The notes beneath the pieces were generated by a model. It did not search any database. It saw only the letters and a list, made by a program, of their open reading frames with translations, and had not been told where the DNA came from. Made by a program: the position numbers and the translations under genes. Below, one piece after another: positions 7,681-53,296 of a DNA stretch of 64,000 nt. Each line of letters opens with the position of its first letter. Position 1 is the stretch's first letter. Source of the stretch: Amphibalanus amphitrite (Eukaryota > Arthropoda > Thecostraca > Balanomorpha > Balanidae); assembly GCF_019059575.1 (NCBI RefSeq), contig NW_024882320.1, forward strand, positions 124,001-188,000. The letters are read 5' to 3'.

Positions 7681-8495
7681 TTATTTGAAATTTGAGACCG
7701 GGGCTGGGTAACTAAGGTCCGTCCGGGCTGCCTGCGTCGTCTCCGTATAGCCGCGGTTTTCGGGCCAGCCCCCGGTGACCGAAAAGGGTTAGTCGTTCGT
7801 CGGCTTTACACGAATCCATGACTACCAGTTTATGCCAAATTGCCTATAATAAAACGAAAACTAAGCGTATCACGGCCCGCGGTGGGCTTATCTAAAATTT
7901 GAAACCGGGCTGGGTAACTAGGTCCGTCCGGGCTGCCTGCATCGTCTCCGTATAGCCACGGCTTTTGGAACAGCACCGGCGACCGAACGGGTTAGCCTCC
8001 GTTGGCTTCACACTTATCCACGACTACCAGCGTTATAGGTGCCCGAAGCCCTATCTATCCGTTGCTGGTAGTTAAGCTGTCGTCACAGACCTATCCGAAA
8101 TGACCGCTGCACGGCCGGAGTAAATCGACTAACAGCGGGGTGGCCAGTACCGACTTACCGCGATCACCCGACTCGCATGCTTTGGTATTTAATGTTCACC
8201 CCCGTCCTGCAGCATCACACGTTTCTTCGCGGGACATTACTTAACCGGCGGCATACGTCTCCTCGCTGGGACGCCTGGGGTCCTAACCATCTCCGAAACT
8301 ACCTACGTCGCTTATCGAATGTCATCCTGCGCTGATCACTCAATGGACCGATAGCGGACCTAACCTATCTTTTAAAACCGGGCGGGGTCACTAGGTCCCT
8401 CCGGGCTGCCTGCATCGTCTCCGTATAGCCACGGCTTTATGGGGCCCGCGCCGGCAACCGAACGGATTAGCCTTTGTCGGCTATGCACTCATCCT
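7681..8495. repeat. Three diverged ~140-bp copies inside the 5' LTR
   Basis: A module containing CCGTCCGGGCTGCCTGC, CGTCTCCGTATAGCC and GGGTTAG occurs at about 7681-7829, 7888-8033 and 8360-8495. The third copy is also present in the other LTR at about 1621-1757. Spacing is uneven (~207 and ~470 bp), so this is not a simple tandem array. Confidence 0.7.
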
Positions 8496-8838
8496 CAATA
8501 ATCGATCCTCAACTCGCTCTCACCCTTTCTCTTCACTTCGCGACTTATTGCACGTATCCAGGGCTTACCCAAGCGAGGCCTACTATTTAAGTGGGGTCTA
8601 TCCGAGCTGAGCTTCATTCAGGAAATCCGATTCCTCTACGTGTACAGTCTTCAATTCCATTTCACTCGCTTCTTATCTCCCTCCTAACCCATGGCCGCGT
8701 CGGTGGACTTTCCACGCACAGGGGCGTGACGTGCATCATCTATCTCCCCGGTTCCGTCCCTTGCAGTGTCCCCAGTGTCCATGTGGGGTAAAGTTACAAA
8801 TATTTCGTGTGCGGCAAGGTCTATGTGTGCTCCTTATA

Positions 8839-9506
8839 TTCGGACCGCTGGATAGGGTAGAGCGCCAGGAAATCCGCTGGCGAGGGCACTTGGGAGTCAA
8901 CCGGAGAAGCTCCAGTATCGGTTGGGCTAGGGAGGTCCCGTATGTGTTGTGTATAATCGCTATCATTTGGACCGTGGGATAATTTGGGGAGGATGGAGTG
9001 CCAGGAAATCCACTGGCAAGGGCACTTAGGAGTCAACCGGAGAAGCTCCAGTATCGGTTAGGCTAGGGAGGTCCTGTATGTGTTGTGTGTAATCGCTATT
9101 GTTTGGACCGTGGGATAATTTGGGGAGGATGGAGTGCCAGGAAATCCACTGGCAAGGGCACTTAGGGAGTCAACCGGAGAAGCTCCAGTATCGGTTAGGC
9201 TAGGGAGGTCCTGTGTGTATTGTGTGTAATCGCTATTGTTTGGACCGTGGGATAATTTGGGGAGGATGGAGTGCCAGGAAATCCACTGGCAAGGGCACTT
9301 AGGAGTCAACCGGAGAAGCTCCAGTATCGGCTAGGCTAGGGAGGTCCTGTGTGTGTTGTGTATAATCGCTATTGTTGGACCGTGGGATAATTTGGGGAGG
9401 ATGGAGTGCCAGGAAATCCACTGGCAAGGGCACTTAGGAGTCAACCGGAGAAGCTCCAGTATCGGTTAGGCTAGGGAGGCCCTGCATGTGTTGTGTATAA
9501 TCGCTT
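8839..9506. repeat. ~136-bp minisatellite, copy in the 5' LTR
   Basis: Same array as 2101-2768 at an offset of 6738, with the same unit order and the same unit-to-unit differences. The array therefore predates reverse transcription of this insertion and has not changed since. Confidence 0.9.
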
Positions 9507-11102
9507 TGTGCACTGTGTAAACTCAACAGATAAAGAGAACTGATCGTTGTAAATTACTCTGGCCGGACACCTTGGAAACGACCTCTTTCCTGACTGTGGG
9601 TTAGCATATGGCCTTTTATGCTCCATCCTCCGATTCCTGCCCCTTCAGCACTACTCACACTCGTATTTCGATATTTACAAGTCCCATTTATTTACATACT
9701 CCGACGCAACACCTTAAATTCCCTTTCACGTCAAATTTAAAGAAAACATTCTGGGCCCAGGCCGCCCATCAACTGAGCCCCACAAGCCGCGCGGTGCGGT
9801 ACACAGTCGCCCGTCCCTTTCCCGACTCCCCACGGTGCATGTATTCCCCTCCGTCCGCTTAAATCACAACGGGGCGCCAGACGACTGAAGAGGGCCCACG
9901 TCGGCACGCGTGTCGCACTACGCGCACAGTTACATAATTGATCGAAATCGAATTGTGAAATTAAGCTACCTAGACTGAAAGTCCCAAGAATAAATTTAAA
10001 TACCTAAGCTGAATGGCCTAAAATATTGCGGACGACACCTAAAAGGGGAATATAATGTGGCTCACATAGCAGTAACGAAAGGGGGGGGGGGTTACTTGGA
10101 GGATTTAGGGACTAGGTGCGCACCCGTGTTCACCGCGTGACCTTACTTGAGATGGAGTCGCTGACATGATGGTCGTGACCGTCCAGCGCCCGGCCAGGCG
10201 GCCGGAGCCGCCGCCGGCGCCGTGATGCCTGCCGCTGGTCTCTCGTGGGCTGTCCACGGTGTCAGATGTGAGCCGAGAGCGAAGAGCGGCGTGGGATCCG
10301 TCGTCCGAGAGAGAGCCAGAGAGCGCGGAATGCGTCGTCCGAGAGAGCTTTTCAGTTCCGTTTCATCAACTTATACTTCTGATGACGTCATACTTCAGAG
10401 GGCCGGGCAGCATCACCTTGTCCAATCTCCGTCCTCCATTCTCAGAAGCTGCACTCGGCTCCGCCCTCGAAAGTTCGTGATTTGCTGACAAAGTTCGGTT
10501 CCCCTCCGGCCATGGCAGTCGCACCCTTTCACGCAGCGACCGGGTGGAATTCGCCGCCGGCGCTCACGGCGCCTGAGGCGCCAGGTGGCGGGCCTGGCCC
10601 TCTGCTCCCCTTGTTTTGAAGTCAGGTCCGGCCAGATGTCCTATATTTTGTCGTTGGCGACCGAGTTCCATTTCATCCTGTTTTCGTACAACCCGGGTCG
10701 GTCTCCGCTCCCCTTTCTTGTTTTGGTTCAAATCAGGGCCGGTCTGCACTCCCCTCTCCTTGTTCTCTGGCGGGGTGCCGAGCGTGGGACAGAGTCTTGT
10801 TTTCCAAAGGCTAAACTGATTAATGGCTCGAGGCTGGCAGAATGGCGCGTTTCGGTATGCTATTTGTTGGCTTCAGATCCGGGTTCTCATGAAGTGGGGT
10901 GGTCATCTATAGAGGACCCCTGTTTGTCAGAGCCGACTGCGCCGTCTGTGTGGACGCCAGCTGGGACGGAGAGAGGGTATTACAGCCGATTTAGCCGGCT
11001 GACCGTGTCTGTGCGGCGCTCGCAGATGGCCGTGTTTCAGCTTGTGGCACAGCTTGCAGTTCAGCATGAAAGATGAAAAAAATGTAACGCATCTGCGTTA
11101 CA

Positions 11103-16500: not shown

Positions 16501-19500
16501 ACAATGAGCCGGGCCAGGGGGCTGACCTGTTGGGCGCGGTACGTTGTTCATCTGCGTGTTGTATTGATGGAATGCCAGTCATATAATTTATCGTTGGTAT
16601 GACGTCATTTTAGCGTTGAATATTAAAATTTGTTCGTCATTGAAAGACTACGTTTGCTATTCAATGCCTTTAATTTGGCGAGCGGTTGCAATTAGTAATG
16701 TCGATACAATACAACAGTGGTCGGCAGGTCATTCGGGGTCGTGCCCTCTTTTTGGGCGCCAGGCAGGGCCATTACCCCCACCTACCAGACCCCATTGCTG
16801 AGACAACCAAGTTTACTGAAATTCCATACCGTCCTGGAACTCTTTGGGTATTTGTGCATTTCTAATGCATCAAGTTTAAAACATGACACTTCCTCCACAA
16901 AACATTTAATGCCTATATCCCAGTAGCGGCGGAACACCTTCAATTAAGGGGAGGGGAGGGGGGGCACTGCTGACTTTTGGTCCCATTCTTTCCATGCAAC
17001 GCCCATAGGGCTAATGTTAAAATGCAAAAATCAAAGGGTGCACGGTGCCCCGGTGCCCTCCCCGTTCCGCCGCCTATGCTATATCCCATTTAACCCTTGT
17101 ACGTTTAGGGGCGGCGGGTGGTTTTTTGTTAAAAGCTCACGTAAAAGGCATTGGATCACGACCAAATTGTACCCTCGAGCCCATCATATTTTTTTTACCA
17201 GCCCGGAAAATATCATGACCTGAGACCAGTTTTACCAAGTACAGAAAAATAACCGCCTGCCGGAATTTTTGCCTCAAGACCGCTTCACATACGGAGCGTA
17301 AACGCGATGGGCTCGTAAGCGGATAGGGCTGTACCGTTTACGCTCCATATGTGAAACGATCTTTAGGCAAAAATTCCGGCAGGCGGCTATTTTTCTGTTG
17401 GTAAAACTGGCCTCTGGACCCATAATGACCGTTGGCTTATAAGCTTTTTCTGGAGATCATCTTGAGCCATAAACTCTCACTTCAAGGAGTTATAGCGGGT
17501 CCCGATTTTCTCGACACTTGTCATTGCCCTCTTGAATGAGACGGAATGACCAAGGACCTTAAAAATGGGCAGCAGCGGCTTCCTATTGTCATGGGTAGCA
17601 CGCTCGTCTTTTTTATGCACAGCTCCATATCAGAGTCCGAGAGGCCGCGGGGGTCCGATCGACTCCTCCCCCTTACGTTAGCGGCTGTTGAAACGCCAAC
17701 AGACGGGCGACGGTCAAAAGTTGCAGCTGCTTTTGTATATACGACTGTACGGAGGGGTGAGATGGTGAGGGGAGCAGGTAAATACGTGAAAATTGGTATC
17801 TAATCAATGTGTGCTGACTGCTGTGCCTTTGGCCTGGGCTAATCTTTGAACCCTGGGATGCAACAGTCACGATGGCTCCATCACTGGAGCTACAAACTCT
17901 AAAAAGATAGGCTTTCTCAGAATCCCTCATTACCCCCACCGAAAGGGCTCCATTACCCCCAAAGGGGGCATGCCCCACCATTTGCCGACCCCTGCAATAC
18001 AATATGTCGGCTCTAGTAATTGCCCATCCTCGCTATTTTACTAACCACCTGTGACCTGAGCATAGTGACCGCTGACATACCTGAGCATCGCCCTCTCCTT
18101 CCTCGCTGACCTTCGCCCTTTTTCTGGTCAGGTCCGTAACGCCACCCGGCCCCAGAGTCTGGTGACCACCCGTCACCAGCTTCTGGTGACGTTCTCGGCG
18201 CTGAACCGTACCCAGACAGAGGTCATCATGGCCATCACGGCCGGAGATGGTGAGTGTCGAGTGACGGGGTTAGAACGGGATGGGACGGGAGGGTAGGGAA
18301 ATGACAGGACTTTGCGATGGGTCGATGGAGTTGGCAAGGGACAGGACAGTTGAGGCGACGGTAGAATGAAGGGGAATTAAAGATCGGGAGGTTCGGGCAT
18401 AGCGCCGCAGGCAGCGCAATAAATCGTTTATAGATTAGTCATCTCTCAAACAGTGCGCTCTTGGCAAATAATACGGTCGTCCATAACAAAGCCCTTGACC
18501 AACGACTTTATTACCACTGACAGCAATATGTCGAAAAGTGTCGCTGTAGCTTGTATGTGTGCAACGTCAGTCATGCCACCCTGACCGTTATATTTCTGTC
18601 TCTCCAGGGAAGACCCACGACCTGAACGTCTCCAGCTGTGACGTATCCAACAACAACGGACGTGGCATCGCCGTCGAGAACCTGCGCTCGCTCGTCCACG
18701 TGCACCGCACGCTCGTGGCCAACAACTCACACGTGGCCGGCGTGCACGTGCTGGGTGGTGCCGGTGATGTCAACATCACGTGGTCCCAGATCACGAACAA
18801 CATCGGTGACGGCATCAATATCACCTACGCGGGCGGCAACAAGAACATTTCTTGGTGTGAGATCGCTGGCAACTCGGGTCGTGGCGTGTCCCTCTGGTAC
18901 AATGAGACAGATCATAAGGTGACATTCAGCCAGGAGTTTGTCCTCGCCTACTCGAAACTCTCCGAGAACGAACTACAAGGCGTGTTTGTCGGCAACTTCT
19001 GCCGAGATTCGTTTGTGAATATTAGTGGTAATGTGTTCCAGCGGTCATTCTGGGACGCGTTGGATATTTGGACGTGTCAGGAGGCTACAAAAGGGAAGCT
19101 TCTGCTGCAGATCGGTAACAACCGCTTCCTCAGGAATGAGCGACTCGGCATCAACATCGAACCAGTGGCCAACATCTTCGGTAACATCGAGTACAACTAC
19201 TTCGCTGAGCAGCGTGTGGCCTCAATGCGAGTGTACAGCGGGGACACGCCTGAAGTGGAGCTTCTACCTCTTGAGCTCAACATAACCAACAACTACTTCG
19301 AGAGGAACAACGGCATTTACGTGGTGAACATCGGTGCGTCACAGTATGCACACTCGTCAGCGCAGCAGATCCTCTTCAGCCGCAACTTTTTGGTGAAGAA
19401 CGCCGTCGAGGAGCCATTTCCCAGTCTGAATCCTCGTAACCGTGTGGCCGCAGTAGTCACTGTTTCTTCCGCTTCTGTCATTGTCTACCGCAACATCATG

Positions 19501-22500
19501 GAGAATCCCGAGTCGGAATACGAACTGGGCGTGCATTTTGAGGATCAGAGCGCTAATGCCAACGCCTCCCACAACTGGTTCGGCTTCAAGCGAGCCAACC
19601 AGGTATACAGCCGTATATTCGACCGTAAAGACCGCTATAACCTGGCCAAGGTGGACTTCGAGCCTTTCCTGCTGAGTGAGAACGACCCCAACTCAATCCT
19701 GCTCTCGCTGAACGAGCAGTTTGTGCCGAATTTCGGACCGGACGCGCAGAACGAGATCGGTGGAGAGATAGCGGGCCAGGTGATCCTGCCGGAGGGCACG
19801 TTCCGAGTGACTCGGGATATCTATGTCCGGCCGGGCGCCCGCCTGACAGTAGCCTTCGGAGTGCGACTCGAGTTCCAGCACAGCGTTGGTGAGTACACAA
19901 TGAGAAAACTACGCTGAGATGGTTTGAAGATGTATGCGTATCAATTGATTTACCTATCAGCTTTTTATCATTTTCTCAGACATTTTTGGCAACTTTTCAA
20001 TGCATTATTCGATATTGAGTTCACTGCATACATTCTAAGCAACTGTAAACGTAACGAACATTTTTAACGTATTTCTGCCTCTCCAGATTAGCCCTACGAC
20101 CGTTCAGTTTCTTTGGTAGCAATTTGATCACTGCTGCGTCCCGTCCAGGTATGATGGTGGCCGGCCACATTCACGCCGAGGGCTCGTCAATGAGTGAGGA
20201 GAAGCGAGTGACATTCAGTCTGGAGGAGCGCGATCAGCGGGACAACGTCAGCCTGGCGCCCGTCAGACTGGTCGGAGGGCGCACCGAGCGAGAGGGACGG
20301 CTGCAGGTCAGTCTGGTCAGCGGCCGACGAGAAGGGTGGCAGTATTATGCTTTGATGGGAGGCGACGTGCTTTAGATGGAAGGAACGGCTGTCTTTGCTC
20401 AACTTCAAGTGGATTTCTTTGGGAATGTTTTGTAAGAAAGTGTTGATGCATGTAGTTATCTTCGTATAATACAGCTAAAGTCTGCTCTATCATTTTACTT
20501 TTACTCTTTTACGGTGCCATGTTTCCGTACCCATTATGCTCAGAGATGAGTACGGTCATAATTATGCGTCTAATAACCTCCAACACTAACCCCGGCCCTC
20601 CCTCTGCCCTACCAATAGGTGCTGATTGACAACGAGTGGGGCACGGTGTGCTCGCGCGGCTGGAGCATCCTGAATGCGGCGCTGGTGTGCCGCCAGATGG
20701 GATGGGTGCTCAACCCGCTCGACTGGCAGATGACGCGCACAGAGATGCCCCTAGAGGGACTCGACTCGCGCGTGATGATGAGGTAAGTGATACCACGGAG
20801 CACTGGTAAACTGCTAGGTCCGCCCATTGGCGAAACCATCCGGCTTCCTGCCTTGATGAAATGGAAATTGGGTTTAGTGTAGTTTAATAACTTGTTGCTA
20901 GGGCTGCTACGAGCGAAACTCAACCGGAGGGGGGCGTAGGCTGCTTTCATTTGTTATCATAACGTAATTTTATATTGCTCGAGGTCGTCGTGTAAACACG
21001 TCGTCTACCTCTGTGTGCCCACACCTAGCCTTCCTTAACGCCTCAGTGTGTTTCTACCCTCAGGTCTGTGTCGTGCTCGCCCACCGACCGTCCGTTGACC
21101 CTGTCGTTTACACCCTCCCCTCTCCCCCCCCCCCCCCAGCTCTGTGTCATGCGCGCCCACCGACCCTCCACTGACTCCACCTTGCCTCCTCCCTTCTCCC
21201 CCTCAGCTCTGTGTCGTGCGCGCCGACCGACCTGGACGTGACCCGGTGTCGCCACGAGTCGGCGGCCGAGCTGGAGCACACGTGTCCGCACGAGATGGAC
21301 GTGGCACTGCGCTGTTACGACGTCAGTTGGGCGGGCGTTCGGTTCGGTCTGCCCGCCGAGAAAAATATACTGAAGAATGTCTGGATTGAGAGCGCGGGAC
21401 TTATCGATCATGCGACGTACACGTTTGGACCAGGTGAGAAGGAAGGCATTGGCAGGCTGATGGTGGTGTTTCGCTTTTAATTTAATATTTCGTGAACAAC
21501 ATTGGCTTAGTTACAGAAGGTCTTTTGTGTCTTTGCCCAGTAGTTAATATCGTCCTGCTTTTCTTCAGATCTTTTGCCTGTATTTCTTTTTATACTTGCT
21601 TTATTATTATTATTTTTTATATTATTATTATTTCTGTACCTATTTTGATGTGCATGTGTTCCGTTTCACAGCGCTGCGGATGGACTTTAACCACCACGTG
21701 CTGGAGTCGGTGGTGCTAACCGATAACGACGGTGACGGCCTGGGCATCATGTACTCGGACACGTTCAAGATCGACTCTGTCAACCACCTGAAGCGGGTGG
21801 AGGCGCGCGGCAACCGCGGCCACGGAATATCACTGCGCTCACTGTGGCTCGATATGACAAGTGAGGAAACGCTGGAGCCCGGCTCCGGTGGTGTGCACCG
21901 CAGCTCTGAAAGAAGTGGGGGTGATTGGCGTGGTTATTGTGCTGAATTTTTGCTGAATTCTGAGGGAGGCTTCTTGTTTGAGTGCCCTGCAAACCAATTG
22001 GTAAATTATTGGTATTCTAAGTATTTGTGCATATATCAGTTTCCGTAAAGAAGATTATTTTGCGAAATCCTGAACTGTGTTTCGCCCAAACTACTTTAAT
22101 TCACCGTTCTCTAAGAGTTTTATATAAATCTCGCAACCCTTACGATCGAAAATGAGTCTTGCTAAAATAATCTACATCAACACCCGTCACTGAACGTCCT
22201 CTCCCACCCTCAGACTGTCTGGTGGAGGAAAACGGCGAGTCGGGCATCCACTACAACCCGTCCCTGAGCCGACACGAGCAGCGGGAGCTGATCGGCTGGG
22301 CCGGCCTGGTGCGAGAGAGACGCGTGCTGCTACCGTCAACATCGGTACGGATCGAGCTGGACCTGTACCAGCCCACCTACCTGATCACAGAGGGGTCGGA
22401 CGAGGCCATGGAGAGAATCTTCCATGTCACGGTGAGGGGCTTAGTCATGAGGTGTGAAGGTTTGGATGCGGATGCCCTGGGTAGTGGATAGAGCTCTTAT

Positions 22501-25500
22501 TTTTTTGTTAGGCTATGTACCGTCTGGGGTTTCAGTTATCTTGCCAACCAGTGAAAGGTCTTGGTGAAAATGTCATCCTTGAGGTGGCTGGTTGAAGTAA
22601 AAGTCGAGGAATATGTAATTGATGAATTTGATTGGCTCACTGGGTGAGTATTTACGTGCAGCCTACATGCTTATATTTTTTTTAGTGAAAGTGGTCGTTT
22701 TGAAAGCAGGTCTCGGCTACATATGGCAGGTTGCTGCGTTGCACCGGCTGCCTATAATAGAATATGCAGTGCGTCACAGTCAGAGTGCTAGAGCTTCTAT
22801 TTACCTCTATCCGATCTGACGTTCTCATCACGTGTGACCCCTCTCCATTGGCAGACATCCCGTGAGAACCTGATCGGCATTCAGGTGCTGAACCCGAGCC
22901 CGCCGGACTCGTCCGAGGACATCCACATCTACGACTTCTACCAGATCGAGCCATCGGCCGTGGTACGTCGTGAGGGTCGAGTCGGGACCGAGGGAGGTCA
23001 TTTTCATTGGAAGCTTTTCTTGTTTTATACCTAAGCTGTGTTGTGATGATAGTTCGATGTTTATCTAACTCCATTATTAATCACGGGCTGAATAACTATT
23101 CGATTCACTGAACCGTTTATCTTACTATTTTTAACCACCACCGCGTAACCCTAGTCTCGCAAATAATCCATTATGCTGCGATCATAGAGATCTTATAATA
23201 AGATCTCTATGGCTGCGATGCCCAGAGTGTGATGCCTCGTTAACCAAATGTGATCGTGTTTTCTCCAGATCTGGCAGCTGCGCCGCGACTTTCTGGCGTT
23301 CCCGGTGAGCTCTGCCAGTTACCAGATCACGCTGCGGTACATGACCCGAGGCCCGGCCCGCGGCGGAGCTGTGCTGCTGTTCACCGCCATCAGACGTGAG
23401 TACTTACATAGAGCTACACGCAGTGGTCTGGGACAGGATGGCGTTCATGCGATTCACCATCGGGCTTACAGTTGAATCTGCTTTTGGGGAGGAGGGATTG
23501 GGGCTTAGGAATATGCTGTTGTACATACGCTTGTAGTCTAGCTTTTTGTAGTGTGTGTTTGCTTATCTGTACTTTTTTTCTTGCTTCCTGATGATCTGCT
23601 TGTATCATGCTGCTTGAATGTCTCCTATGCCGTTATACCTAACGCTCCACGCCGAACAAGTTTTGTTTCGCTCAATTCTGACACCTATTCCATCGCTCGT
23701 CTGTGCTCTTAGGTTCTGATGTGCGGGAGCTGCGTCTCACCTCGCTGCTACGGTATGAGGAGGAGCGGGGACGGGTGCCTCGGCTGCGGCTGCACAACAC
23801 GCTCGTCAGGAAAAACCGATACGGCGTGTCAGCTCTGTTCTACAGCAGGTGCGTAGTCGATGGGTAGAGGGGGTAGTTGAGAGGCACTGGTTATATCACG
23901 GGAGGCTAGAGAATATACTGTTGGCGTGTTTGTGATGCTCATACTGCATGCGTTGGGAGTTGCAGGAGGCGTCATAAGTGAGCTTAACGACTTAATTCGA
24001 TCAGCACTCGCTACTGATGCTTAGGCAACCGAACGAAGCATTTAAGATCAGTCCAATGCCACTTAGAATAGCAGCATCAGAGCAGTTAGTAGGTCTCTGT
24101 CTGCCCTCTGGCTAAGCTTCGCATCCACCCAATATGTCAAATATGCGATGCTCATGTATCGTCACCTTATTCACTATGCCTGCAGATACCGTGGCGACCT
24201 ACACGAGCTCTTCCTCCGAAAATCGAACGTCTCTATCGAGATGTACGACTCTGAGCTCTCGGGTAACCGCGAGGAGGCGGTGTTCTACCTGTCTCCGTTC
24301 CGAGAGGACGTGTCTCACAACATCTCTGAGGTGACCACCGTGATCAACAGGACGCGGATCGACAACAACGGAGCCGGCATCAGGCAGTTCTCCAGGTGGG
24401 TGGCGGTGCTTTACTGCGGATTGGATGTGCTTGATGAATTTGACACCCGATTGCGAAAGCCCAAAAGTTCAGCTAGCATGAAAAGTGCTTAGCCTCCGGC
24501 AGAGTAAGCAGTTTTTGTTAATGTTTTTTTTTGCGGTTACTTTCATCGTAAAAGCTTGTTGCTGGCTTAGTTGATGTCCACTTAGGTATACTTATTTGTT
24601 CAGTCAGCTTTTAATTCATTTTGTGTAGGCATCGCATGATTTCGTTTCACGAAAAAAGGTGACGATTAAGTTTTATCTGACACGCGCTTCTACCATCAGG
24701 GACCTATGGTTGTCCAACAACCTCTTCCACTGGGTGTTGGACAACACGACCGTCACGTCCAACCGGCGCGGCGGCCTGGACGTCTCTCTTCCCTACGTGT
24801 GGCGCTACAACGAGAACTTCACCCACTCCTTCTACGTGGCCGACTGCACCTTCTCCGGCAATCGCGACTTCCAGGCAGTGGTCGGAGGCCACTTCGCGAG
24901 ACTCCAGATCCTGCGAAACACTTTCCAGGATAACATCTGTAACGGTGGCCTGCTAGCGGTGCGTGGCATGGAAAAGGAGCTGCTGATTTCTAGGAACGTG
25001 ATCCGTCGGAACACGGGAACTTTCATGGTGGAAGTGGCGGTGGACAGTCAGTCAGAGATTCTCGGTCACGTAACTGCCGAGATCACCCGTAATGAGGTGC
25101 GATTCAACGAGCAGCCGCTGTCCGGCAGGGCGGTGCACGCAGCGCCGAGTCACGTGCTGGCGGTGCGCGGCGTACAGCGTGTCAATGTCACAGAGAATCT
25201 ACTGGGACGCAATCAGATGGACTACGAGTTCCTGGCTGGGACTCACTCGTCCAGTCTGGCCACAGAACTGATGGCTAGCCGAAACTGGTGGGGGACGAGA
25301 AACCCACACGAGATCCGGGAACGCATCTTCGACTTTGATGACTGGAACAGCTATGCGATCGCGCGATTCAGTCCGTTCCTGTCGAGGGATTCGCTGGATG
25401 CGCCGGAAGAGTACGAGTACGAGCAGGAGCACCAGCCCGATCTGGACAACCTTGGCGGCAGGATCAGGGGCAACTTCACACTCCGGTGAGTTGAATCAGT

Positions 25501-28500
25501 GGCAGCCGAGGCAGGGGACGACCGTTAAAGATGCTGGAAAGTTGGCTCGTGTGATCGACTGCGCTAATGATGCATTGATATATCTGCAGCACTCTCCCTG
25601 ATGGACTTCAATTTGTTAGCGTCATGCTTCTCGAAACAGGAAATCGAAACCTGCTTGTTGTCCAAATGCATGCTCGTAAATTTGGGAGCCTGAAATAGCA
25701 TACAACGATCATCCAACTATGATAGATATGATATTTAAGATATTGTTACGATCCTATATCCAGTTACAGTTGAACCATCTTCACCCTCAGTGCCGTCAGT
25801 AACTGACTCACCCCTCCCTCACCGCCAGGTACCGTCCGCAGCCCTACATTGTTCGCTCGGACATCACCGTCATGCCAGAGGCCACGCTGCGCCTGGAGCC
25901 GGGCGTCACACTCGAGTTTTACTCGTCCGTCGGTCTGCTGGTCCTGGGCACCCTTCTGGCTGAGGGTAACCCTCGCCAACGCATCACCCTCCGTCCCCTC
26001 ACCCGCGAGCTGCAACACTTCCGCGTGGGCCGCGCTGTGGCCCAGCGGCAGCTGTGGGGCCACGACGAGAGGCCGGCCAGGCTGAGGCTGTGTACCGCTG
26101 GGAAATGTGGAGGCTCGGAGGGATTTCTGGAGCTGTTTAATGCCACCACGGTGCAGTGGGTGCCGGTGTGTGACCGGCGCTTCTCCGATCGGAACGCGGA
26201 GGTTGTGTGCCGCCAGCAGGGCCTTCCGTCGGTGAACGTGCATCTCCGCCGCGGAAAGCGCACAGAGTTTCACGCTGGATCTGTCAGTCTGGTCACCACC
26301 TGGCCTGAGCTTCTCGAGTGTTCGGGACAGGAGGAGAACCTCGGTCAGTGTCGACTCCGTATGACTGGCCGACCGGGCGAGCCCGCTCCCCGCTGCCACT
26401 GGGAAGACGAGTATGTGTTCATCGCGTGTGGAGCGGCCGACGCCAACGCCACGGCGCGCGCGTGGGGAGGCGTGAGGTTCTCCACGCCAACCTTCGAAGT
26501 TCAGTCGTTCTTCGAGCGGCTTCACGACGTCCACACCCACGGCCGCGGTCGGTCACGTCAGTCGCGTCTGAGGTTTGTGGATGTTCTCGGCGCCGGCTGG
26601 CTGCATGGGGAGAAGTCTCCAGCGCTGCTCAGCGTGGCCATATCGCCCGACGTTCGTGCGGTGAATGTGACTGGCAGTCTGAGCGATGGCGTGACCGTGG
26701 TTAACCCCACGCGGACACTCGACTTCATGCACCTGTGGTGAGTAGCGCTACCACGTGGAATAATGCCCAAAGTTTATTTTAGACTCCTGGCAATTTGTTA
26801 GTGTCATTCGTGGACTCCTGCCTATCGTCTCCAATTAGTTTCAAAGTTGTATCTTTATGGATGTCGATGATAAAAATATTTTATTTTCATGCATTCTAGC
26901 GCTGCTCATTTGTAACTTATCGGTGATATCTATTTCACGAAGGAATCACTTGTCACCATGAACATTTAACAGAAACCGTCGCGTCTATGCCCATTTCCCG
27001 GTTCTCGACCTGTCTCTAACCCAACTGTCCCGTCTGTGTGTCGCAGGGTGCACAATAACCTCGGTATTGGCCTGAATACCATCATGCTGACCGGCGAGGC
27101 GCGCAGCTCCGGACGAAGCTCGTTCGTTCCACTGCAGGAGGTGCCCGTACCGTACAACCTGTTCGGTAAGTACAGACAAGCCCTGACAAAGGACTAGGTG
27201 TCCCCATGGACGGAACGATAGACATGTGGAACGTAATCCTTATCTGAAAGTTGGCGCTACTGTTTATCGTTTGAATTGTTTTCTTTCGTATTTCGATAGA
27301 TGCAATATGCACGTATAGTTAGCATGGAGTCGACGTGTCCCGTTCCCTTCAAGCCAAGGTCCAGTAGAGTCGCTTTCATATTCGTCATCCTAGATCACTG
27401 CATTGCTCCTTCAATCGTTCTGCTCTGCTTTGCCGCAGGCATGGTGGATATGTGCGACGCCCACAAGGAGATAGTTGTCCAAGAAAGGATACTGCTTTAC
27501 TACAAGTACGACAACCGGCCGGTGGACTGTGTCAAAATCTTCACCTCGTCGGCTCGCATCAAAACGTTCGGATTCAGGTATGTTCGCGTCGCTCGATACA
27601 ACGCAAATTCGCCTGTCTCGAATGGGTTCCAATTCAATCGCTGGTTTTTGTAGTGTTCTGTACTAGAGCATCAGTTTTTTTTCGGTAGATGCGTTTCAAG
27701 CTTTTTCCCGACTGTATGTCGCTTATTAAATTGCCGGTGTTTAACCATTCTCGGTTTCACTTTTTCACAGATTGCTGCAGTTCAACCTGGTCAATTCAAC
27801 CGATGAGCCACTTCTGACACCGGACTACATCCGGCTGTACGATGGCGATATCTATAACGTGACGTCTCGACAGATGGCGCAGCTGTCGGTGGGCTCGTCT
27901 GATGGCGCGGTGTTCCATGTGACCAATGAGACCTCGATGAGCGTTCAGCTCCATGCGAGCGGCGCCGGCAGTCGGCACGGATTTATCGCTGAAGTGGTGA
28001 CGCTGCCAGTCTCCAGCATCGGATTCAGTGAGTTGGAGTCGGGGTGTAGGACCACTGTCGGTACTACGTCGAGTGATAAGTAACGGGTTTCCGATAGGGG
28101 AATTGGTACGTTGGAGCATTTGGCCCAAATCCGAGGGCTTGGAAACATTTATGGGCATTTTATGAACTTTCGTTAGCTGTCATATCACTTATGTACTAGG
28201 GTTGACTATTAAATAATGGAAGTGCCTTAAGCAATTAAACGTTTTTGCACGTGCACACATTTTTTTGGTGTCATTTCATGCGCCGATGTTTTTTCTATCC
28301 AATGGTGAAGACCACATGTCCTTAGCTACTTCTTGCTCCAAGCTATCGTCGTTTTCCCAAGAGACCACCTGAACCTGCGGCGCACCATGAAAAAGGAGTC
28401 TGGCAATGGCCAAAATCGCGCGCCAAGCGCCAGCGCGAGGTCATCAGAGCTTACTGGCTTATTGTTATGGCTACACAATGGACAATTGCTATATTTTCAT

Positions 28501-34500: not shown

Positions 34501-37500
34501 TACAAACCAATACATACTATATATGCCTATAGGCAATAGGTGTGGCATCATATTGGACCTTTCTCCCCCCCCCCCCCCCGCTCAGCAACCGGACTGCCAG
34601 GGATCGGGCCGGCCATGAGTTACCCCACGCCCACCCTTAACCAGGGATGCGGAGTCGTGGACATTTCAGACGGTTCCGACTCCGGCTCCGGCTCCGGGTG
34701 AAATGCCATGGCGGCTCGACGGCTCCGGCTCCGAGTAAAATGGTCCGGCGGCTCCGGCTCCAATAATCAGTACATTTTAAATACCTACGGGTGGCAGAAA
34801 AAAGAAGATGGGATTGGTGCACGTTGCTTCTGCATTTGCATAACTTAAGGCTATTTTCATATTTTGAATACCGTATTTCTTATAACTGCCTGGAACTGCA
34901 AGTTCAAGGCAGTTCGGTTTGACAAACCGAACTGGGTCAATATTTGTTTCTTCTTCAAAAAAAGGATCCGGAGTCGCCCCCTTTTTTGACAGCTCCGGCT
35001 CTGGCTCCGGCTCCGAACTATATTGTTTCACGGCTTTGGCTCCGGCTCCGGGCAAAATATGCCGGCTCCGGCGGCTCCGGCTCCGGCTCCGCACCCCGGC
35101 CCTGCCTCAAACCGAAAGTCTGGATCCACCCTGGTGCCCTAGCTAATCGCTATACTAGAATCAGCGCACACAGATGTCGTGGTTTACATGTATATGCATA
35201 GATGTCGCAGCGATAGCGACACATGCAGTGCAAATGGTAGCAGACAGCAGTAGTTTCCCCTACCAAAGTGGTGGTTTTCTACCACAGACGCTCGTCAAGG
35301 TCGGAAATTCCAAATACGCCGACCGTCCACCGCTGCAGCCAGGCGTCGCTCTCCTGAAGAAACTGCATGTGTTCTCCCGCCGTTGCTGGATGGAGGCTGG
35401 ATATCACGCGTCGCTTTGAGCAGGGGTCGAACCGGGCGGAAGCGTTTAGCACATCGAGCAGGTCGTTGAGGCGCAGCAGGAGAGTTGCAGTCGGGAGTGC
35501 AGTGCGCGGGAGCTTACCGTGGGTCGCATGCAATGTGATTGCTGCTGCTACTGTCCGGCTCATCACCTGTAGGGCATAGCTGACTTTCATTTTTCAAAGC
35601 TATTTGGCCTGATGTGTTTCTGGCTTAGTTTTTGAGCAGCCCGTGGGGAAGAAGCGCATTCCAGTGCGTAGTGTTTCTAAATGACTCCAAGAGGCTACTT
35701 CACCGTCTACTTCAATATCGTATTTCATTAATGCATTTCGTATGCATTTGAAGATGTGAGGCACGTCATACAGAGCAGCAACCTCGTGCCCGTCCACGGT
35801 GAACAAGCCGGTTTCCGCAGCTCCGAGCAGTCTGTAGGTCGCCTGGTTGTTCTTTGACATGTCACAAGTTGTAGCTAGCACAGTGAATCCCGCTGTTGTT
35901 ACACGTTGGACACACTGTGTTAACAGCTGCTGCTGCACAACGGCCTTGGTCGTTCCGGAACTCAGAAAGAATGGGCTGTTTCCAGCGTTTGGTGACACTG
36001 ACGCCCCGCACCATCATGACCAAGGCGTGGTCGGCGCAGGCATTGGCGCGGCAGAGAGAGCCATGATCAGTGAAGCCCTCGATGACGTCATCACCCCGCT
36101 GGTAGGCCAACCTTGGTTTCAGCTGCATTTTGTCGAACGAAATGATGCACAGCTTGTCCTTGGCACTTGCTCCGGCGAACTTCTCTTTTATGAGAGCCAA
36201 GATAGCGTCATGAAAGCCAGGTCGCATCTGTATTTTTTCCATCTTCCTCCGCAGAGTTCGAGGATGGGGAAGGACGTACCGTTTTTGTAGGATAGGAACC
36301 GATACGCCCTGGGACCAAGGCCATATATAGTTCTGGGACCCTGAAGTAGAGCGCGAGTGCTCGCACTTCCTCATCTTCATCAAATTTTGGACGAATTTCA
36401 TCGAATTTCATTTATTTTAGACCAATGTTAAAACTGTAATGCAATGAATATGTATAAATGCTCCCGTAGCAATGTGTGCTAAAAGTTTCCAATAAAATAT
36501 CCGGTAACCATTTCAAAGTCACAGTCACAACTTGGCCCTTGAAGACGAATCATTCGACGATTGTTAAGAAAAAATGTATGAAATGTTAAGAAAATATATG
36601 AAAATGTAAACCCACGTGGAAAGAAATTCATCCGCATCCTCCGGATCTCCGGATATTCATCCGATTCATCCGGCAAAGTCCTTGATTTTTGGTTACACAC
36701 GTGGCAATGCTAATCGAAGCTCCTGTCCATTCCATGTCGTAGACTATATATTCCGTGCTACCAGTATAGCGCCTTTTGGGGCGACTAACGGAGCGAGCGA
36801 GGGGGTGAGTCTTGCACGTGCGAAATTTCGAGGGGGTACCTGCAACTGACTTGTGCACGGCACCCTACTGACCGGTTTCTAGCAATGTGCCAAATTTGAA
36901 CACAATCGGCCCAGCCGTTCTCGAGATCTGGGAGCGGCACCCTGCACGTGCGCACGTGCAAAATGGGTCCCAACTGACTTGTGCACGGCACCCTACTAAC
37001 TGGTCCCTAACTGTGTACCAAATTTGAGCGCCATCGGTCCAGCCGTTCTCGAGATCTGGAAACGACCCCTGCACGTGCGCACGTGCAGCAGCACCCCAAC
37101 TCTGGCACATGGATATGCAGTGCCTAGTGGGTGCCTACCTACATGCCAACTTTCAGCGCAATCGGCCAAGTAGTTACCGAGATATTGCAACAATTACAAA
37201 AGTGACACCTCTTCGTTTTGCACGTGGCACGTGCATAAGGGGTCACCCACATGCATCGGGAATAGTCCAATACTTGGTAGAAGGAATGAAGCTACCCTAC
37301 AAAAATTACCGCATGTAAATCGGTCAAGTGGTTGCTGAGATATAAGCCTCGCAAAAGCGTCCGCACGGCCGGCCGGCCGGCCGGCCGCTCATACTCAGAA
37401 ATTTCCGTTATTCTACGTAAGACTCCGCTCGCTTCGCTCGCTCCGTAACTACATCCTGCCTATCAGTCATCATTGACATGCTTCTCCTCCAACAGACCCG

Positions 37501-44432: not shown

Positions 44433-44508
44433 TCAGTTATAGCCAGACGACAGCTTGGGCGGGCCATATTTAGAGCTGGGAGCCTTGTATCCAGAGCTCG
44501 GGACACTG

Positions 44509-44641
44509 GGTCCACGTCAAAACAGCTAGTGACTATTGAGCTAGTGACTTTTGAGCTAGTACAAAAGAGCTAGTGCTTCAAAACAGCTAGTGACAAAACA
44601 GCTAGCGCCAAAATAGCTAGTAATGCAAAACAGCTAGTATT
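44509..44641 (+). repeat. MULE left terminal repeat, outer part (AGCTAG array)
   Basis: Units such as AGCTAGTGACAAAACAGCTAGC recur every ~17-20 nt. Their order matches the reverse complement of the outer half of 47190-47442. Confidence 0.8.
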
Positions 44642-45860
44642 ATTGCTTCCAAATTAAGCTTGATCCTCACTTCGCTCCAGTACTGTAGTGAATACCCTAC
44701 CGGAGACCGAGTTTTACCGAGATACCCGGCTCGGCGAGCCGTGCACGGTAGGCCAGAGGTTTAACATCCGGGGCTTTGTGACATCCGGGAGTTTCAAACG
44801 CGCGGGTAGGGGTGCGGACGTGACCTGTGGTCGGTCAGCGATCAGCGATTTTGGCCTCGGGCGCCTCTGGCGTCAGAAGCATGACACGGCGCTCGGGCGC
44901 AGCGCCGGGCGAGAGACGGGCCGCGCGGCCGTGGTGCAGCTGGACGCGCGATCGGAACGGAATTCAGCCAGGACCCGCATCGTAGGTCAAAGGTCAAGGG
45001 CACATATGGCCGGCGGGCGAGACCAGCGGCCGAAACAGAAGTCGCTGTGAGGCGAGGGCAGTGATCTGACGCCGGCCCGGGCCTGCACGATGTCTGATAA
45101 TGTTTTCTGCTCTACTGCGGGGTGCTTTGACTGAGCTAGTTTTAATATTGCGTGTAATAATCATAAGCACAGTATGATTTAAAACAATAATGTCAATATA
45201 ATCTGAACATATATTATATATATTTTCAGATAATTATTAACCCGCGCCAAGCAGGTGCTCGGCGCCAACCACCTCCCTCCCCCCCCCACACTAACTCGGC
45301 TCCTGCAGGCCACGCCCACGTATGCGACATGTGGTAAGCGGCATTCGAAAAAGCTCGAAAATCTTAAAAAAACGATTGTTTGCTTGCTTCGTGCAATTGG
45401 AAAAAATAATGTCTGAGAAGGCACTCTCCTCGGCCAGCGACGTCTAGGACTTAAATTGATTCCCTGCTTCAGAAAATGTGAAAAGGTTTAGCGTATAAGT
45501 CCGTGTAGCACTCGAATTGCCAAGCGTGCCAAATATTTTCTCACCCGTAGGCCGTAACACGCCCATCCAGCGCTCCCCCACCCGATCATCGGCCTGACCA
45601 CTGCACTGTGGCGCTTTCATCATCCCTGATTGGATAGAATGTGACCCAGCTATGCGTCACGCTCACGTGCCCGCCATTATCACAGGTCATTCCCGTGTCC
45701 CTGCCCCAGGCGCGGACTGACAGTCACAAGGTCCACGCACTGCTTCAGTCTGACACGCACCTCACCGGGACAGCTACCCTGGCGGTACGGGAGGGGTTCG
45801 GGAGGGTATTCAATGCAGTACTAGAGCCAGGCGCGAATCAAGCTTAATTTGGAAGCAATA
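44642..45860. mobile_element. Element nested in the MULE left terminal repeat
   Basis: The ends TATTGCTTCCAAATTAAGC and its mirror near 45842-45860 form inverted repeats that continue about 70 bp with mismatches (GAATACCCT, AGTACTG). The interior has an ORF of 120 codons (44688-45050) with no recognised family. The target duplication is unclear. Confidence 0.65.
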
Positions 45861-45985
45861 GTACCTCAAATCAGCTAGAGACAAAACAGCTAGCGTCAAT
45901 ATAGCTAGTAGAGCAAAATAGCTAGTGCTTCATTAAAGCTAGTGACAAAATCGCTAGCGTCGAAATAACTAATGAAGCTGTAGCG
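45861..45985 (+). repeat. MULE left terminal repeat, inner part
   Basis: The AGCTAG array resumes (GCTAGCGTCAATATAGCTAG) and matches the inner half of the right terminal repeat inverted, which shows that 44642-45860 is an insertion into a once continuous repeat. Confidence 0.8.
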
Positions 45986-46014
45986 TATTCGCACCGAAAC
46001 GAAAGAACATTACA

Positions 46015-47115
46015 TTGAGGCTGCAAAGAAAAAGAAGAAGGCTGGAAGGATATGCCCCGGAGCCGTCGACGAGGGCAGAAATTCAAATTCCCGAAAAATT
46101 TAAATTTGTTAAGCAAGGGGAAGAAGACGTACGCTTTTTATTATACGACAACGCCGAAAACGAAGACGATTACAACGAACGACCGAACGACCGAATCATA
46201 GTTTTTGCGACCGACCAAATGCTTGACGAACTGGCGGCGAACGATACATGGATGCTCGACGGAACTTTCAAAATTTCACCAGTACTTTTTAGTCAGGTAT
46301 ACACCATTCATGTGGTTGTAGGTGACTCAGGCCATGTTTTCCCTTGCGTTTATGCACTTCTTCCAGACAAAACTTTCGCAACATACCGAAAATTCTTCGT
46401 AATTTTAAAGTCATTTAGAGATCTACAACCGCGTACGTGTGTTATTGATTTCGAATTGTCGGCCGAAAGGGCCCTCCGAGATGCCTTCCCTGACGTCTCA
46501 GTAGAGGGATGTTTTTTTTTTTTCATTTGACTCAGGTATTTGGCGTAAGGTTCAGGCCTGCGGTCTTGTCCCGCAGTATATCGGGACAAGGCTGCAGTCC
46601 GAGAAGCCAGCAAATCACTGTGTGCGCTAGCATTCTTCGAACCGTCGCAAATTGTTGAAACTTTTGAGGAATTACAAGAGGAAGTGGAACAGCTGGGGGA
46701 AGAAGGATTACATCAATTATACGATTACATTGAAGATACATATATAAGAAGGCTGGGTAGAAGGAGCAGAAGAGCACCGTTGTTTGACAAAATTATTTGG
46801 AATGATAGGAGGACAGAGGAAGGGATCCCTAGGACAAACAACAAATTAGAAGCGTGGCACCGGGGAATACAAGGCATGTTTGACTCATCACACCCATCAT
46901 TAATGAGATTTTTCACCGCCATCCAAAAAGAACAAAATCTTCAAGCATCTGATCTTGTGAAATTCAAAAGCGGCCAGGATGTTCAAAAACAAAAGAAAAC
47001 ATACAGAGACATGAATGCCAGATTGGTCACTCTACTGAGACGCTACAGGGAAGGCATTATTAGCAAAAAAGAATTCATTCGGGGAGTAGGCTTCAACATC
47101 ACTTTGAATGTTTGA
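46015..47115 (+). pseudogene. MULE transposase, two frameshifts
   Basis: The first frame (to 46530) has WMLDGTFKISPVLFSQVYTI with the first catalytic Asp, HVFPCVYALLPDKT, and VIDFELSAERAL with the second Asp. A T run at 46511-46523 shifts the frame; IWRKVQACGLVPQYIGT then follows in another frame, which shifts again near 46585 into REASKSLCALAFFEPSQIVE. The last 143 codons (46684-47115) are open and contain GIPRTNNKLEAWHRGIQGMF, typical of MULE C-terminal regions. The DDE-type transposase is therefore inactive as written. The T-run shift could be a sequencing error. Confidence 0.85.
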
Positions 47116-47189
47116 GATGGCATGACGCGGGAAATACATGTGTCATAGATATCTTGCATTTTCGAAGCGAAGTGATTGGGAAGGGAACA

Positions 47190-47442
47190 GAGGTCCAACG
47201 AAATAGCTATTTTGACGCTAGCTGTTTTGTCACTAGCTGTTTTTAAGCACTAGCTATTTTGCTTCACTAGCTATTTTGACGCTAGCGATTTTGTCACTAG
47301 CTATAATGAAGCACTAGCTATTTTGCTCTACTAGCTATATTGACGCTAGCTGTTTTGTCACTAGCTGTTTTGAGGCACTAGCTGTTTTGTACTAGCTCAA
47401 AAGTCACTAGCTCAAATGTCACTAGCTATTCTGACGTGCACC
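47190..47442 (-). repeat. MULE right terminal repeat, uninterrupted
   Basis: About 250 bp of GCTATTTTGACGCTAGC and GTTTTGTCACTAGC units in the opposite orientation to the left array. This copy gives the original unit order. Confidence 0.85.
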
Positions 47443-48320
47443 CGGGACACTGTATCCAGAGCCAATGTCGCTGTAGCTGGAGCTAGGAGCACTGTATCCA
47501 TAGCCAATATCGTTGTATCCAGAGCCAATGTTGCTGTAGCTGGAGCTAGGGCCGCTGTAGCTGGAGCTAGGGCCACTGTATCCAGAGCTAGGAGCGCTGT
47601 ATCCAGAGCTAGGAGCGCTGTATCCAGAGCTAGGAGCGCTGTATCCAAAGCTAGGAGCGCTGTATCCAGAGCTAGGGCCGCTGTAACTGGAGCTGGGGGC
47701 GCTGTAACTGGAAGTAGGAATGCCGTACCCAGTGCTAGGGGCGTGGTAGCCAGTGCTAGGAGCTTTGTATCCAGAGCTGAGAGCGTTGAACTTTTTTCCT
47801 CGTCCACCAAGCTTCAGTTTTCCGAAGTCACGACCTCGGGTCACAGCTCCGTGACCTGAGGTCACCCGTCCGTGGCCGTGACTGAAGCGACCACCTCCAT
47901 CAGCCAGGCACAGCCCGACCAGCAGGGAAGCGGCGAAAATCTGAAAAGAAATTTAAAAAGTGTTGATTTTTTTCCTATGGAAGTATATAAGTTGTAAAAA
48001 ATGACATAAAAACACTGAAACCAGCATCTAGCATTTTAATATTAAATGGACATATTGTCAGGATAATATTTATGAACGTTAGGTACATGGGTGTAGGAGC
48101 GCCAAAAATATTGGTGAAGGATGCCGCCTGAACCTTATGAAAAGGGACAGGACCGTGCCAACCAACACGCACAGTGCAAGCGGGGGGGGGGGGGGGGCGA
48201 ATTTCGCCAACCCCTTGTTTTTCGCAGATATCTTAAGCCCTTATCATCCCATTAACGTCAAATTTTCAATGCCTGCCTAAAACTGAATTTTGCATCTTGC
48301 CATGACAGCAAGATGTAAAT

Positions 48321-49555
48321 CAGGGCCTCGGCTAAGGAATTTTGACTACTGGGGCAAATGGTCAAAGTGTGTTAACCCGCGCCCTGCTGGGAGGGGGGGA
48401 GGTTTTTGAACACACCCCCCCCCCCTGCGGTTTTTCGCGGATAACTGAAAAACGGCGGCACCTTATCATCTATCAATTTTATACATTTTGTGAAAATTTC
48501 AGACCAGGGTCCTTCAAGGTCAGGTCACCAGGTCGCTACAAGTGACCTCACCTCATAAACACATCATAAAATGTTTCAATGTATGCCATAGCTACACCAA
48601 GTGACGGATCGCTTTGAAGCTTTCAGCAATTGATAAGTGCAACAGTATGTACAAAATTCGGAATTTTCATATCGCTGACCTAAGGTCGGGTCAATTTTGC
48701 GACCTCTCTAGGTATTATAAGTCAATGGGAGAAAATTCAAAACCGTCTTTTTCGGACGAAAGTCATTCTAAACACTCTCAAACACTAAATTACATGTAAC
48801 TTTGACACACTGAACATGAAAACGGCACCCGTGACCCCTGTTTATGCCCCTAAGGTCATCTCAGGTCACGAATGGTATCTAACAGTTTTTTGCGACTAAC
48901 TTTTGAAAGAGGTTTGCTAGAGCGATGAAAACGCCTTATATATGTTCAGCTCGACGATACAGAACCACTAATATGCAACTGTCCGGTCAGGTCATGACCT
49001 TGACCTGAGGTCAGATTTTCAAGTTGACCTTTCAAGGTCAAGTTATAGTTCATTCGATGCGTCTTGACGAGAGGAACTCGATGCCGGTAAAAGTAAGGTC
49101 GTACAAGGCTTGGGTCAAAAGTTATTGCAGAAAAACTGTTTCCGAAAAAATCGGCTATTTTTGCAGTTTTTGCCCCCTGCAGGCAAAACCGTTGACGTTA
49201 GGTCAAATCTGAGAGAATTACTCAGAAAGGGCGTTAATAGGGCTATCGAATGCGCTTTTCCGTGGCGCTGTAGCTCTATTGGTTCCCGAGCTATGCGTTG
49301 GCTTCTTGGAAATTGTCGACATTCGACCTGGAAATCGGCGAAATTTTGCCTTCAATGACCTCTGGTGACCTGACCTTTGACCTGACCAAAAAAGTGACCG
49401 AAGTGATTTCGTCATTATTTTTGGCGCTCTTTCGAACGCCGCCTTCTGCGTATCGCTATGTGGCCCAGGAGCCGAGTTAGAAGGGGGGGGGGTGTTCAAA
49501 CACCCGCCCCAGCAGGGCGTGGAAATCCAGGACCCCCAGCCGGGCGCGGGTTAAA
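48321..49555 (+). mobile_element. AGGTCA-rich hAT-like element, copy A, in the GYSAPSS gene intron
   Basis: It starts CAGGGCCTCGGCTAAGG, the same terminus as copy B. The interior is homologous to copy B in the opposite orientation and is dense in AGGTCA/TGACCT. The right end lacks the matching terminus and instead shows an inverted version of its 48374 region (GGGCGCGGGTTAA), so this copy is rearranged. It ends before the intron donor at 49845. Confidence 0.7.
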
Positions 49556-49914
49556 AAACAGACATTTGATCAACCGTCGAATCCAGTAGTTCTAAGCATA
49601 GGTAGGTGAAGACCCTCCCTTGCATTGTCCAAGATTGGTGAAGGATCCTTCACCAATCTGAAACTTTGGTGAAAGGTATCCTTCACCAAAGAGATACGTT
49701 GCTACACCTATGGTTAGGTATGCCGATGAATGCGCTATTCATAAACGGGACATACTGCCAAATAAATACAATACACGTCCAAACCTATGATAAAGTCCTT
49801 AGGGCTTAGGAAACGGACGTTTCTCTGTAGGTATAGACATCTCACCTTAGTGCAGAACATGTTGCTGTCTGGGTCACTGCCGCCAGTGTGTGTCGCTGCT
49901 GAGACAGCACGGTC

Positions 49915-49922
49915 CTTTTATA
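49915..49922 (-). promoter_or_regulatory. TATA box of the GYSAPSS-repeat gene
   Basis: TATAAAAG on the minus strand lies about 55 nt upstream of the ATG at 49860. A start site near 49885-49892 would give a leader of about 30 nt. A TATA-driven short leader is common for highly expressed arthropod structural genes. Confidence 0.65.
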
Positions 49923-51511: not shown

Positions 51512-52860
51512 CAGGGCCTCGGCTAACATGTTAACTACTGGGGCAAATGCCCCAGTAGAGTCGAGGAATGCCCCAGTAGTGGTCAGGCTTTGCCCAACCT
51601 CCACAAAATGAGAATACATCAATATTAACGCACATTCTTTCATTCGGGAGCGGTTGAAGACGTTTATGGCAAGAAATCAGGGGCGGCGGAAGAGGGAGTG
51701 CACGGCGTGCAGCTGCACCCTCAATGTCTATAAAAAAACATAGCCGTGCATTGGCAAACATATCTTTTTGCACCGCATAATCCATCTTCATTCGAAAGAG
51801 CGTCAAAAATAATGACGAAATTACTTCGGCCACTTTTTTGGTCACGTCAAAGGTCAGGTCATGGTGAAGGCCAAATTTCGCCGATTTTCAGGTCGAATAT
51901 CGACAGTTTACAAGATGCCGGCGCATAACTCGGGAACCAATTAGAGCTACAGCACCGCGGAAAAGCGCATTTGATAGCCATATCAGCATGCTTTCTGGTT
52001 ATTTCTCTTAGATTTGACCTAACGTCAACTGTTTTGCCTGCAAGGGGCAAAAACTACCAAAATAGAAGATTTCATGCCTTGCACGAGTTTTCTTTTACCG
52101 ACATCGTGTTCCTCTCGTCGAGACGCATCAAATTAACTACAATTTCACCTTGAAGGTCAACGTGAAAATTCGACCTCAGGTAAGGTCATGATCTGACCGG
52201 AAATTGTCATGTTGCATATCAATCGATCTGCACCGTCGAGCCAAACACAACTAAGGCATTTTCATCGCTCTAGCATGCCTCTTTCAAAAGTTATTCGCGA
52301 AAAACTGTTAGATGCCATTCGTGAACTGAGATGACCTCAGGTGCATATAAACAAGGGTCACGGGTGCTATTTTCATGTTCAGTGTGTCAAAGTCACGTAC
52401 AGTGTTTTATAGTGTTTAGAACGACTTTCGTCCAAAAGAGGTGGTTTTGAATTTTTTCCCATTGACTTATAATAGCGGTCGCAAAATTGAGCTGACCTTA
52501 GGTCCCCGATATGAAAATTCCGAGATATAAATTTTGTACATGCTGTTGCCCTTATCAATCGCTGGAAGTTTCAAAGCGATCGGTCACTCGGTGTAGCTAC
52601 GACATTCATTGAAACATTTTATGAGGTGAGGTCACTTGAAGTGACCTGGTGACCTGACCTTGAATGACCTTGGTCTGAAATTTTACAACACGTGTAAAAT
52701 TGATGGATGCTGGAGCGCCGCCGTTTTTTGAGATATCTGCGAAAAACCGCAGGAAAAACTGCAGGTGTTCAACCTCCCCCCCCCCCCCCCCCCCCCAGCA
52801 GGGCGCCAACACACTTTGACGATTTGCCCCAGTAGTCAAATTTCCTTAGCCGAGGCCCTG
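51512..52860 (-). mobile_element. AGGTCA-rich hAT-like element, copy B, complete
   Basis: Both ends carry CAGGGCCTCGGCTAA inverted, followed by CTACTGGGGCAAAT. The flanks are a perfect 8-bp duplication CACCACAC (51504-51511 and 52861-52868), diagnostic of hAT-type insertion. There is no transposase. The interior has many AGGTCA half sites and a C run of ~22 at about 52775-52797. Confidence 0.85.
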
Positions 52861-53157: not shown

Positions 53158-53296
53158 CAGTAGCAGCGGAACACCTTCAAATAAGGGGGGCACTGCCGAC
53201 TTTTGGTCCCATTCTTTCCATGCAATGCCCATAGGCCTAATTTTAAAATGGCAAAATCAAAGGGGGCATGTTGCCCCCCACATTCCGCCGCATATG
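53158..53296. mobile_element. 139-bp hAT-type MITE, second copy
   Basis: CAGTAGCAGCGGAAC and ATTCCGCCGCATATG form the ends, flanked by the 8-bp duplication CTGGATAT (53150-53157 and 53297-53304). It is homologous to 16921-17078 and lies upstream of the GPHR gene. Confidence 0.85.

Follow-up and report, generated by a model that had tools for sequence, protein, structure and literature searches.

A predicted gene for a secreted repeat protein in the arthropod Amphibalanus amphitrite has very probably been interrupted in its last exon by the insertion of a Mutator-like element (MULE). Gene and element lie in a stretch of 64,000 nucleotides (RefSeq assembly GCF_019059575.1, contig NW_024882320.1, positions 124,001 to 188,000 of the forward strand), hereafter the window, whose first letter is position 1 in all coordinates below. 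The host gene is predicted to run on the minus strand from 49860 to 44433 in two exons, with the 2,934-bp element (44509-47442, plus strand) inside the last one. An earlier note on this DNA had described a precise insertion with a 10-bp duplication on both sides, and this is what we find: CGGGACACTG occurs exactly at 44499-44508 and at 47443-47452 (given on the plus strand), directly outside the element ends GGTCCACGTCA... and ...TGACGTGCACC. In the whole window, searched on both strands, this 10-mer is present exactly twice, whereas shuffled windows contained it 0.17 times on average and only 2 of 100 shuffles reached two occurrences. Since the target itself is a 21-bp repeat, the duplication was also checked for repeat homology. 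Mere array homology is ruled out, as the other 15 units match the 10-mer at 3-8 of 10 bases in the same register. When the flanks are joined over one copy of CGGGACACTG, an open frame of 192 residues results that reads ...GSGYSVP followed by SSGYKAPSSKYGPPKLSSGYN and a stop, whereas with the element present it reads ...GSGYSVP-GARQNS and stops there. The original C-terminus and its stop, said to be intact beyond the element, are indeed found at 44433-44498 (minus strand, stop codon at 44433-44435) and are in frame once the flanks are joined. The in-frame join and the shared repeat type also led us to reject that the two flanks come from different genes, a possibility that the note itself had raised. 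Read from the sequence, this junction pattern is typical of a single, simple transposition, and that the insertion arose by transposition is almost certain.

The coding part of the predicted exon 1 (49846-49860, minus strand) opens with the ATG at 49858-49860, encodes MFCTK and ends at a donor, AAG/GTGAGA, that matches 8 of 9 consensus positions. A TATAAAA motif is located upstream of the ATG (49916-49922). The predicted phase-0 intron (47941-49845, minus strand) has the ends GTGAGA...TTTTCAG, and exon 2 starts directly after TTTTCAG with IFAASLLVGLCLADGGG. Up to the insertion (47443-47940, minus strand), exon 2 is predicted to encode the rest of a signal-like N-terminus, a Gly/His-rich linker and 16 seven-residue units of the SSGYSAP type. 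Both predicted exons together form a stop-free frame of 513 nt or 171 codons before the insertion, in agreement with the claim that the host frame has no other break. The stranded tail adds 21 residues, namely two more units (SSGYKAP and SSKYGPP) followed by KLSSGYN, so that the uninterrupted protein would comprise 171 + 21 = 192 residues with 18 units. Judged by eye, the composition of the Tyr/Pro/Ser-rich repeats and the signal-like N-terminus would fit a low-complexity cuticular protein, and the host protein is probably a secreted, cuticle-like repeat protein. Its likeness to resilin-type Tyr/Pro repeats can serve as a lead only. Among the repeat-protein strings looked for in the literature, SSYGAPS was the one to turn up, in one listed paper. 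Resilin carries an RR domain (review PMC12426002), and this chitin-binding domain, the mark of resilin and CPR cuticular proteins, was not found in exon 2 plus the read-in at a Pfam E value of ≤1. The proposal of a secreted repeat-protein gene is plausible, and this gene would have been hit in its predicted last exon by one event.

The assignment of the inserted element to the MULE (Mutator) superfamily is borne out by its sequence. The first half of a transposase remnant (184 aa, 45976-46530, plus strand) matches PF10551 (MULE) over residues 92-183 with 42.9 bits against a cut-off of 27.6 (E 7e-11), the inverted repeats are long, and the 10-bp duplication is within the 8-11 bp reported for MULE target duplications (PMC6446971). 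The second half (188 aa, 46549-47115, plus strand) continues in the same frame beyond two in-frame stops, and a Pfam scan of it returned no family that reached its cut-off. Between the halves, the transposase-like strings HLTQVF and WRKVQACGLVPQYI sit in the two other frames, which we take, in view of related proteins, to reflect local indels around a T-run. The motifs DGTFK, DFE and NNKLE are present across the two halves and may represent the DDE catalytic triad. Neither a FLYWCH zinc finger in the seven frames scanned (the two transposase fragments and five other frames) nor a SWIM domain in the scanned frames of the element was found, and the five other open frames of at least 80 aa that lie wholly inside the element matched no Pfam family at E ≤0.05. 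Autonomous MULEs have been defined by an intact transposase frame over 300 aa (PMC13359780). Here, a single frame of this kind is replaced by two fragments with stops between them.

AGCTAGT-type motifs of 15 to 17 bp and units of 64 bp make up the terminal inverted repeats, and the right one (47204-47442) consists of a short outer end and three of these 64-bp units carrying such motifs. The left inverted repeat is divided by a nested element of 1,222 bp (44640-45861) with inverted ends of about 66 nt that are 85% alike; by our reading, the flanking TA is the duplication of this nested element. The outer part of the left repeat (44509-44638) is identical to the right arm 47313-47442 at 118/130 bases and the inner part (45859-45978) to the right arm 47261-47380 at 113/120 bases. 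Because bases 47313-47380 of the right arm are matched by both left parts, the arms differ either in the order of their units or in how many they have. The split transposase and the insertion in the left inverted repeat mark the element as decayed and not pristine. Searches for relatives of the transposase in viral contigs yielded pattern-matched stretches of which tblastn confirmed none (0/8 for the first half and 0/20 for the second), and the same was true for genome contigs, where 0/32 stretches were confirmed for the first half only. A 16-base motif of the inverted repeat occurs exactly in five viral contigs but was taken as a chance match, the longer motif being present in 0/5.

The earlier note called the insertion recent or polymorphic, which goes beyond what the sequence can carry. 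In a simple neutral simulation, the duplication remains exact with a probability of 0.82, 0.54, 0.23 and 0.12 at 1, 3, 7 and 10% divergence per copy, and the frame and stop of the stranded tail stay open, considering substitutions only, with 0.94, 0.82, 0.64 and 0.54 at the same values. Jointly, the probability is 0.084 at 7% and 0.029 at 10% if tail indels are included at an assumed one per eight substitutions. Duplication and open tail both tolerate several per cent of neutral divergence and therefore exclude only an old event. From these data, an ancient insertion appears unlikely, and a divergence of several per cent would be compatible. The outer arms of the inverted repeats differ at 12/130 bases (9%), corresponding to about 4.7% per arm on the assumption that both started out the same when the element inserted. 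However, arm divergence is not a clock, because the two repeats of one Tm1 element average only 93.15% identity (PMC3169594). The decay and the nested insertion pull the other way and would point away from a recent event, unless the element was already decayed when it moved.

Two rival accounts concern the age and spread of the insertion. A credible alternative, which we nevertheless do not favor, is that the assembly caught a loss-of-function allele that is polymorphic and rare, or confined to a single individual, while an intact allele exists elsewhere. The exact duplication, the open tail and a predicted gene otherwise without visible damage would all agree with it, as would the precedent of an aphid MULE insertion that was heterozygous and occurred in 8/148 field clones (PMC8201860). 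Still, the element is no fresh intact copy. It is also conceivable, if rather doubtful, that the insertion is old and fixed and that the truncated protein is the normal functional product, its frame kept by selection. The differences between the outer arms, the decay and the nested insertion would be expected under such a history, and a neutral 513-nt frame at 4.7% divergence stays open with a probability of 0.41 for substitutions only and of 0.02 with the assumed indels. If 4.7% had in fact accumulated since insertion, this would speak in favor of a truncated protein that functions; for a young insertion, the open frame carries no information. Against an old fixed insertion, the Tm1 average of 93.15% (PMC3169594) implies that the arms need not have started identical, the indel ratio is an assumption, and neither the lost tail nor the duplication shows damage, as in a younger event.

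For the protein, the reading across the junction predicts a new C-terminus, GARQNS plus stop (47422-47442, minus strand). The interrupted protein has 177 residues, keeps 16/18 of the seven-residue units and loses 21/192 native residues. To describe the gene as broken is strong for a loss of this size. Since each of the three frames runs into a stop no later than 10 codons after element entry, there is no simple read-through product. We propose that a Mutator-like DNA transposon inserted by cut-and-paste into the last exon, duplicating 10 bp of its target, and that the transposase was supplied in trans, from elsewhere. Because its own transposase is incomplete, mobilization in trans of an already defective copy is the probable route. 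The host gene would be transcribed and translation of the mRNA would end six codons into the element to give the 177-residue protein, which would probably keep much of the bulk property of the repeat protein but lack the native C-terminal tail. Transcription may terminate inside the element or continue through arms that are able to form a strong hairpin, which could lower expression; the paired arms of a read-through transcript might also be a source of small RNAs. Pairing of the right arm is predicted at -215.2 kcal/mol with the outer left arm and at -207.5 kcal/mol with the inner left arm; plain shuffles, made 30 times for the outer left arm only, averaged -49.5 kcal/mol and reached -70.8 kcal/mol at the lowest. 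The minus strand has polyadenylation-like hexamers both on the host side, with AATAAA near 44000, and within the element, at 46137 and 45141, but such short motifs prove nothing. We lean slightly towards a mild rather than a null effect on the protein. It is unlikely that the gene now uses the MULE end as its regular 3' end, so that a fixed, shortened and functional protein takes its last six codons, stop and 3' untranslated region from the element, with a read-through inverted-repeat hairpin tuning its expression.

That the repeat frame of a 21-bp satellite is open merely by chance, with no gene behind it, is very improbable. The array is also stop-free in one other minus-strand frame and one plus-strand frame, and because of these two further frames its openness alone is little proof of coding. 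Within the repeats, the ratio of nonsynonymous to synonymous differences (pN/pS) is lowest in the host frame with 0.54, compared to 0.72-1.27 in the other five frames; the underlying synonymous bias is weak. On the other hand, a satellite would not readily account for the signal-like N-terminus, the short phase-0 first exon, the splice-like sites and the upstream TATAAAA, nor for a linker outside the repeats that keeps the frame and a tail that ends in frame with a stop. As gene evidence, the signal-like N-terminus, the splice-like sites and the TATAAAA carry more weight than the openness of the array. Several points nonetheless weigh against our interpretation. The coding signal is weak, as changes at third positions (27/61) are not significantly enriched (column-resampling value 0.135), and a Pfam scan of exon 2 plus the read-in returned 0 families at E ≤1. 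Both the gene and its insertion are known here from one genomic sequence alone. As to mobilization, the transposase may alternatively have been active at insertion and have decayed afterwards. That the element is spliced out as an intron and the protein keeps its native C-terminus is hardly credible: the 140 GT-AG pairs examined combine 14 GT dinucleotides, located between 60 bp ahead of the element entry and 150 bp past it, with AG dinucleotides no more than 60 bp from the exit. Of these pairs, 5 recover the native C-terminus in frame, but by simple consensus scores their donors reach only 3 or 5 of 9 compared to 8 for the gene's own donor, the two donors scoring 6 restore nothing, and the four scoring 7, further in, are all inside the nested element.

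Among 4,268 arthropod genomes surveyed in 2026, MULEs were found in 222 species (PMC13359780). The insertion is another example of an already published kind, not a new kind. In the voltage-gated sodium channel gene of Myzus persicae, a MULE likewise entered an arthropod coding sequence and caused premature stops; that element is itself truncated at one end and has imperfect inverted repeats of 109 bp (PMC8201860). In that study, heterozygosity, field frequency and a lowered expression of the affected allele were determined (PMC8201860), whereas our case comprises one sequence with a small C-terminal truncation. The Muta elements of Aedes aegypti resemble the present one in carrying short tandem repeats subterminally within long inverted repeats, at 9-15 bp in 10/12 long-repeat families, and in their non-autonomous derivatives, reported for all 14 families except Muta6 (PMC5225508). 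They differ in their 8-9-bp duplications, compared to 10 bp here, and in that Muta1 is active, whereas the transposase here is broken (PMC5225508). Tm1 Mutator/Foldback elements of root-knot nematodes share composite inverted repeats with internal motifs of about 14 bp and have duplications of 8-10 bp in 45/53 complete elements, and one Tm1 copy holds a nested second inverted-repeat element, as observed here (PMC3169594). Host and sequence differ, and the likeness to Tm1 is one of description. The Mutator elements of Daphnia resemble Phantom (PMC2884549), and the ranges given for Phantom MULEs, 8-10 bp for the duplication and 18-613 bp for the inverted repeats, cover our element (PMC6446971 Table 1). 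FLYWCH and SWIM, not found here in the frames scanned, mark a difference from Phantom, although an N-terminal FLYWCH is common but not universal in that group (PMC6446971 Table 1). Another criterion for Phantom is that the DDE domain falls into group 20 in a phylogeny. By title and the start of the abstract, none of the matches listed in the literature search described a cuticle-protein gene hit by a MULE, which is no claim of absence from print.

The best feature of the insertion is the well-preserved stranded C-terminus. The insertion offers a readable, clean case of a coding-sequence insertion by a probably animal MULE and answers no open question alone. As for the clean before/after pair that had been announced, the after state is seen in the sequence, whereas the before state is inferred from the joined flanks. 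The precise junctions make a simple presence/absence test by polymerase chain reaction possible. Moreover, such an insertion might in principle be reversible, since about 90% of yeast revertants showed precise excision of Muta1 if it had target duplications (PMC5225508).

The host-gene intron contains repeat DNA (48321-49559) that is similar, in inverted orientation and over 48321-49436, to 51791-52860 upstream of the gene, with 82.6% identity over 706 and 85.5% over 290 aligned columns and an 82-nt arm at 83%. Short inverted ends, TTAACCCGCGCC, are located near 48373 and 49553, and a similar-looking piece occurs near 45238 inside the nested element. That the intron repeat is an element bounded by TTAA became less likely, as the similarity to its relative extends about 50 bp past the left TTAA. 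Across the whole window, Rfam at the gathering threshold and ARAGORN gave 0 matches. Plus-strand frames at 18550-26741 contain beta-helix (PF13229) and SRCR (PF00530) domains and resemble the bark beetle protein of arthropods. A transposase-like fragment on the minus strand (35862-36407) has a TNP-like RNase H domain (PF21787, E 8.1e-19). Long inverted repeats at 40941-41185/41263-41507 (245 nt, 96%) and 28194-28387/28800-28993 (194 nt, 95%) are possibly small transposons, and a 93-nt dispersed repeat with inverted-looking ends is present at 16959-17051 and 53185-53277 with 90% identity. A direct repeat (1382-4364 and 8122-11102) extends over 2,983 aligned columns with 99.93% identity, its copies being about 6,740 bp apart, and may be a recent duplication, a long-terminal-repeat element or an assembly artefact; each copy holds a 136-bp tandem array.

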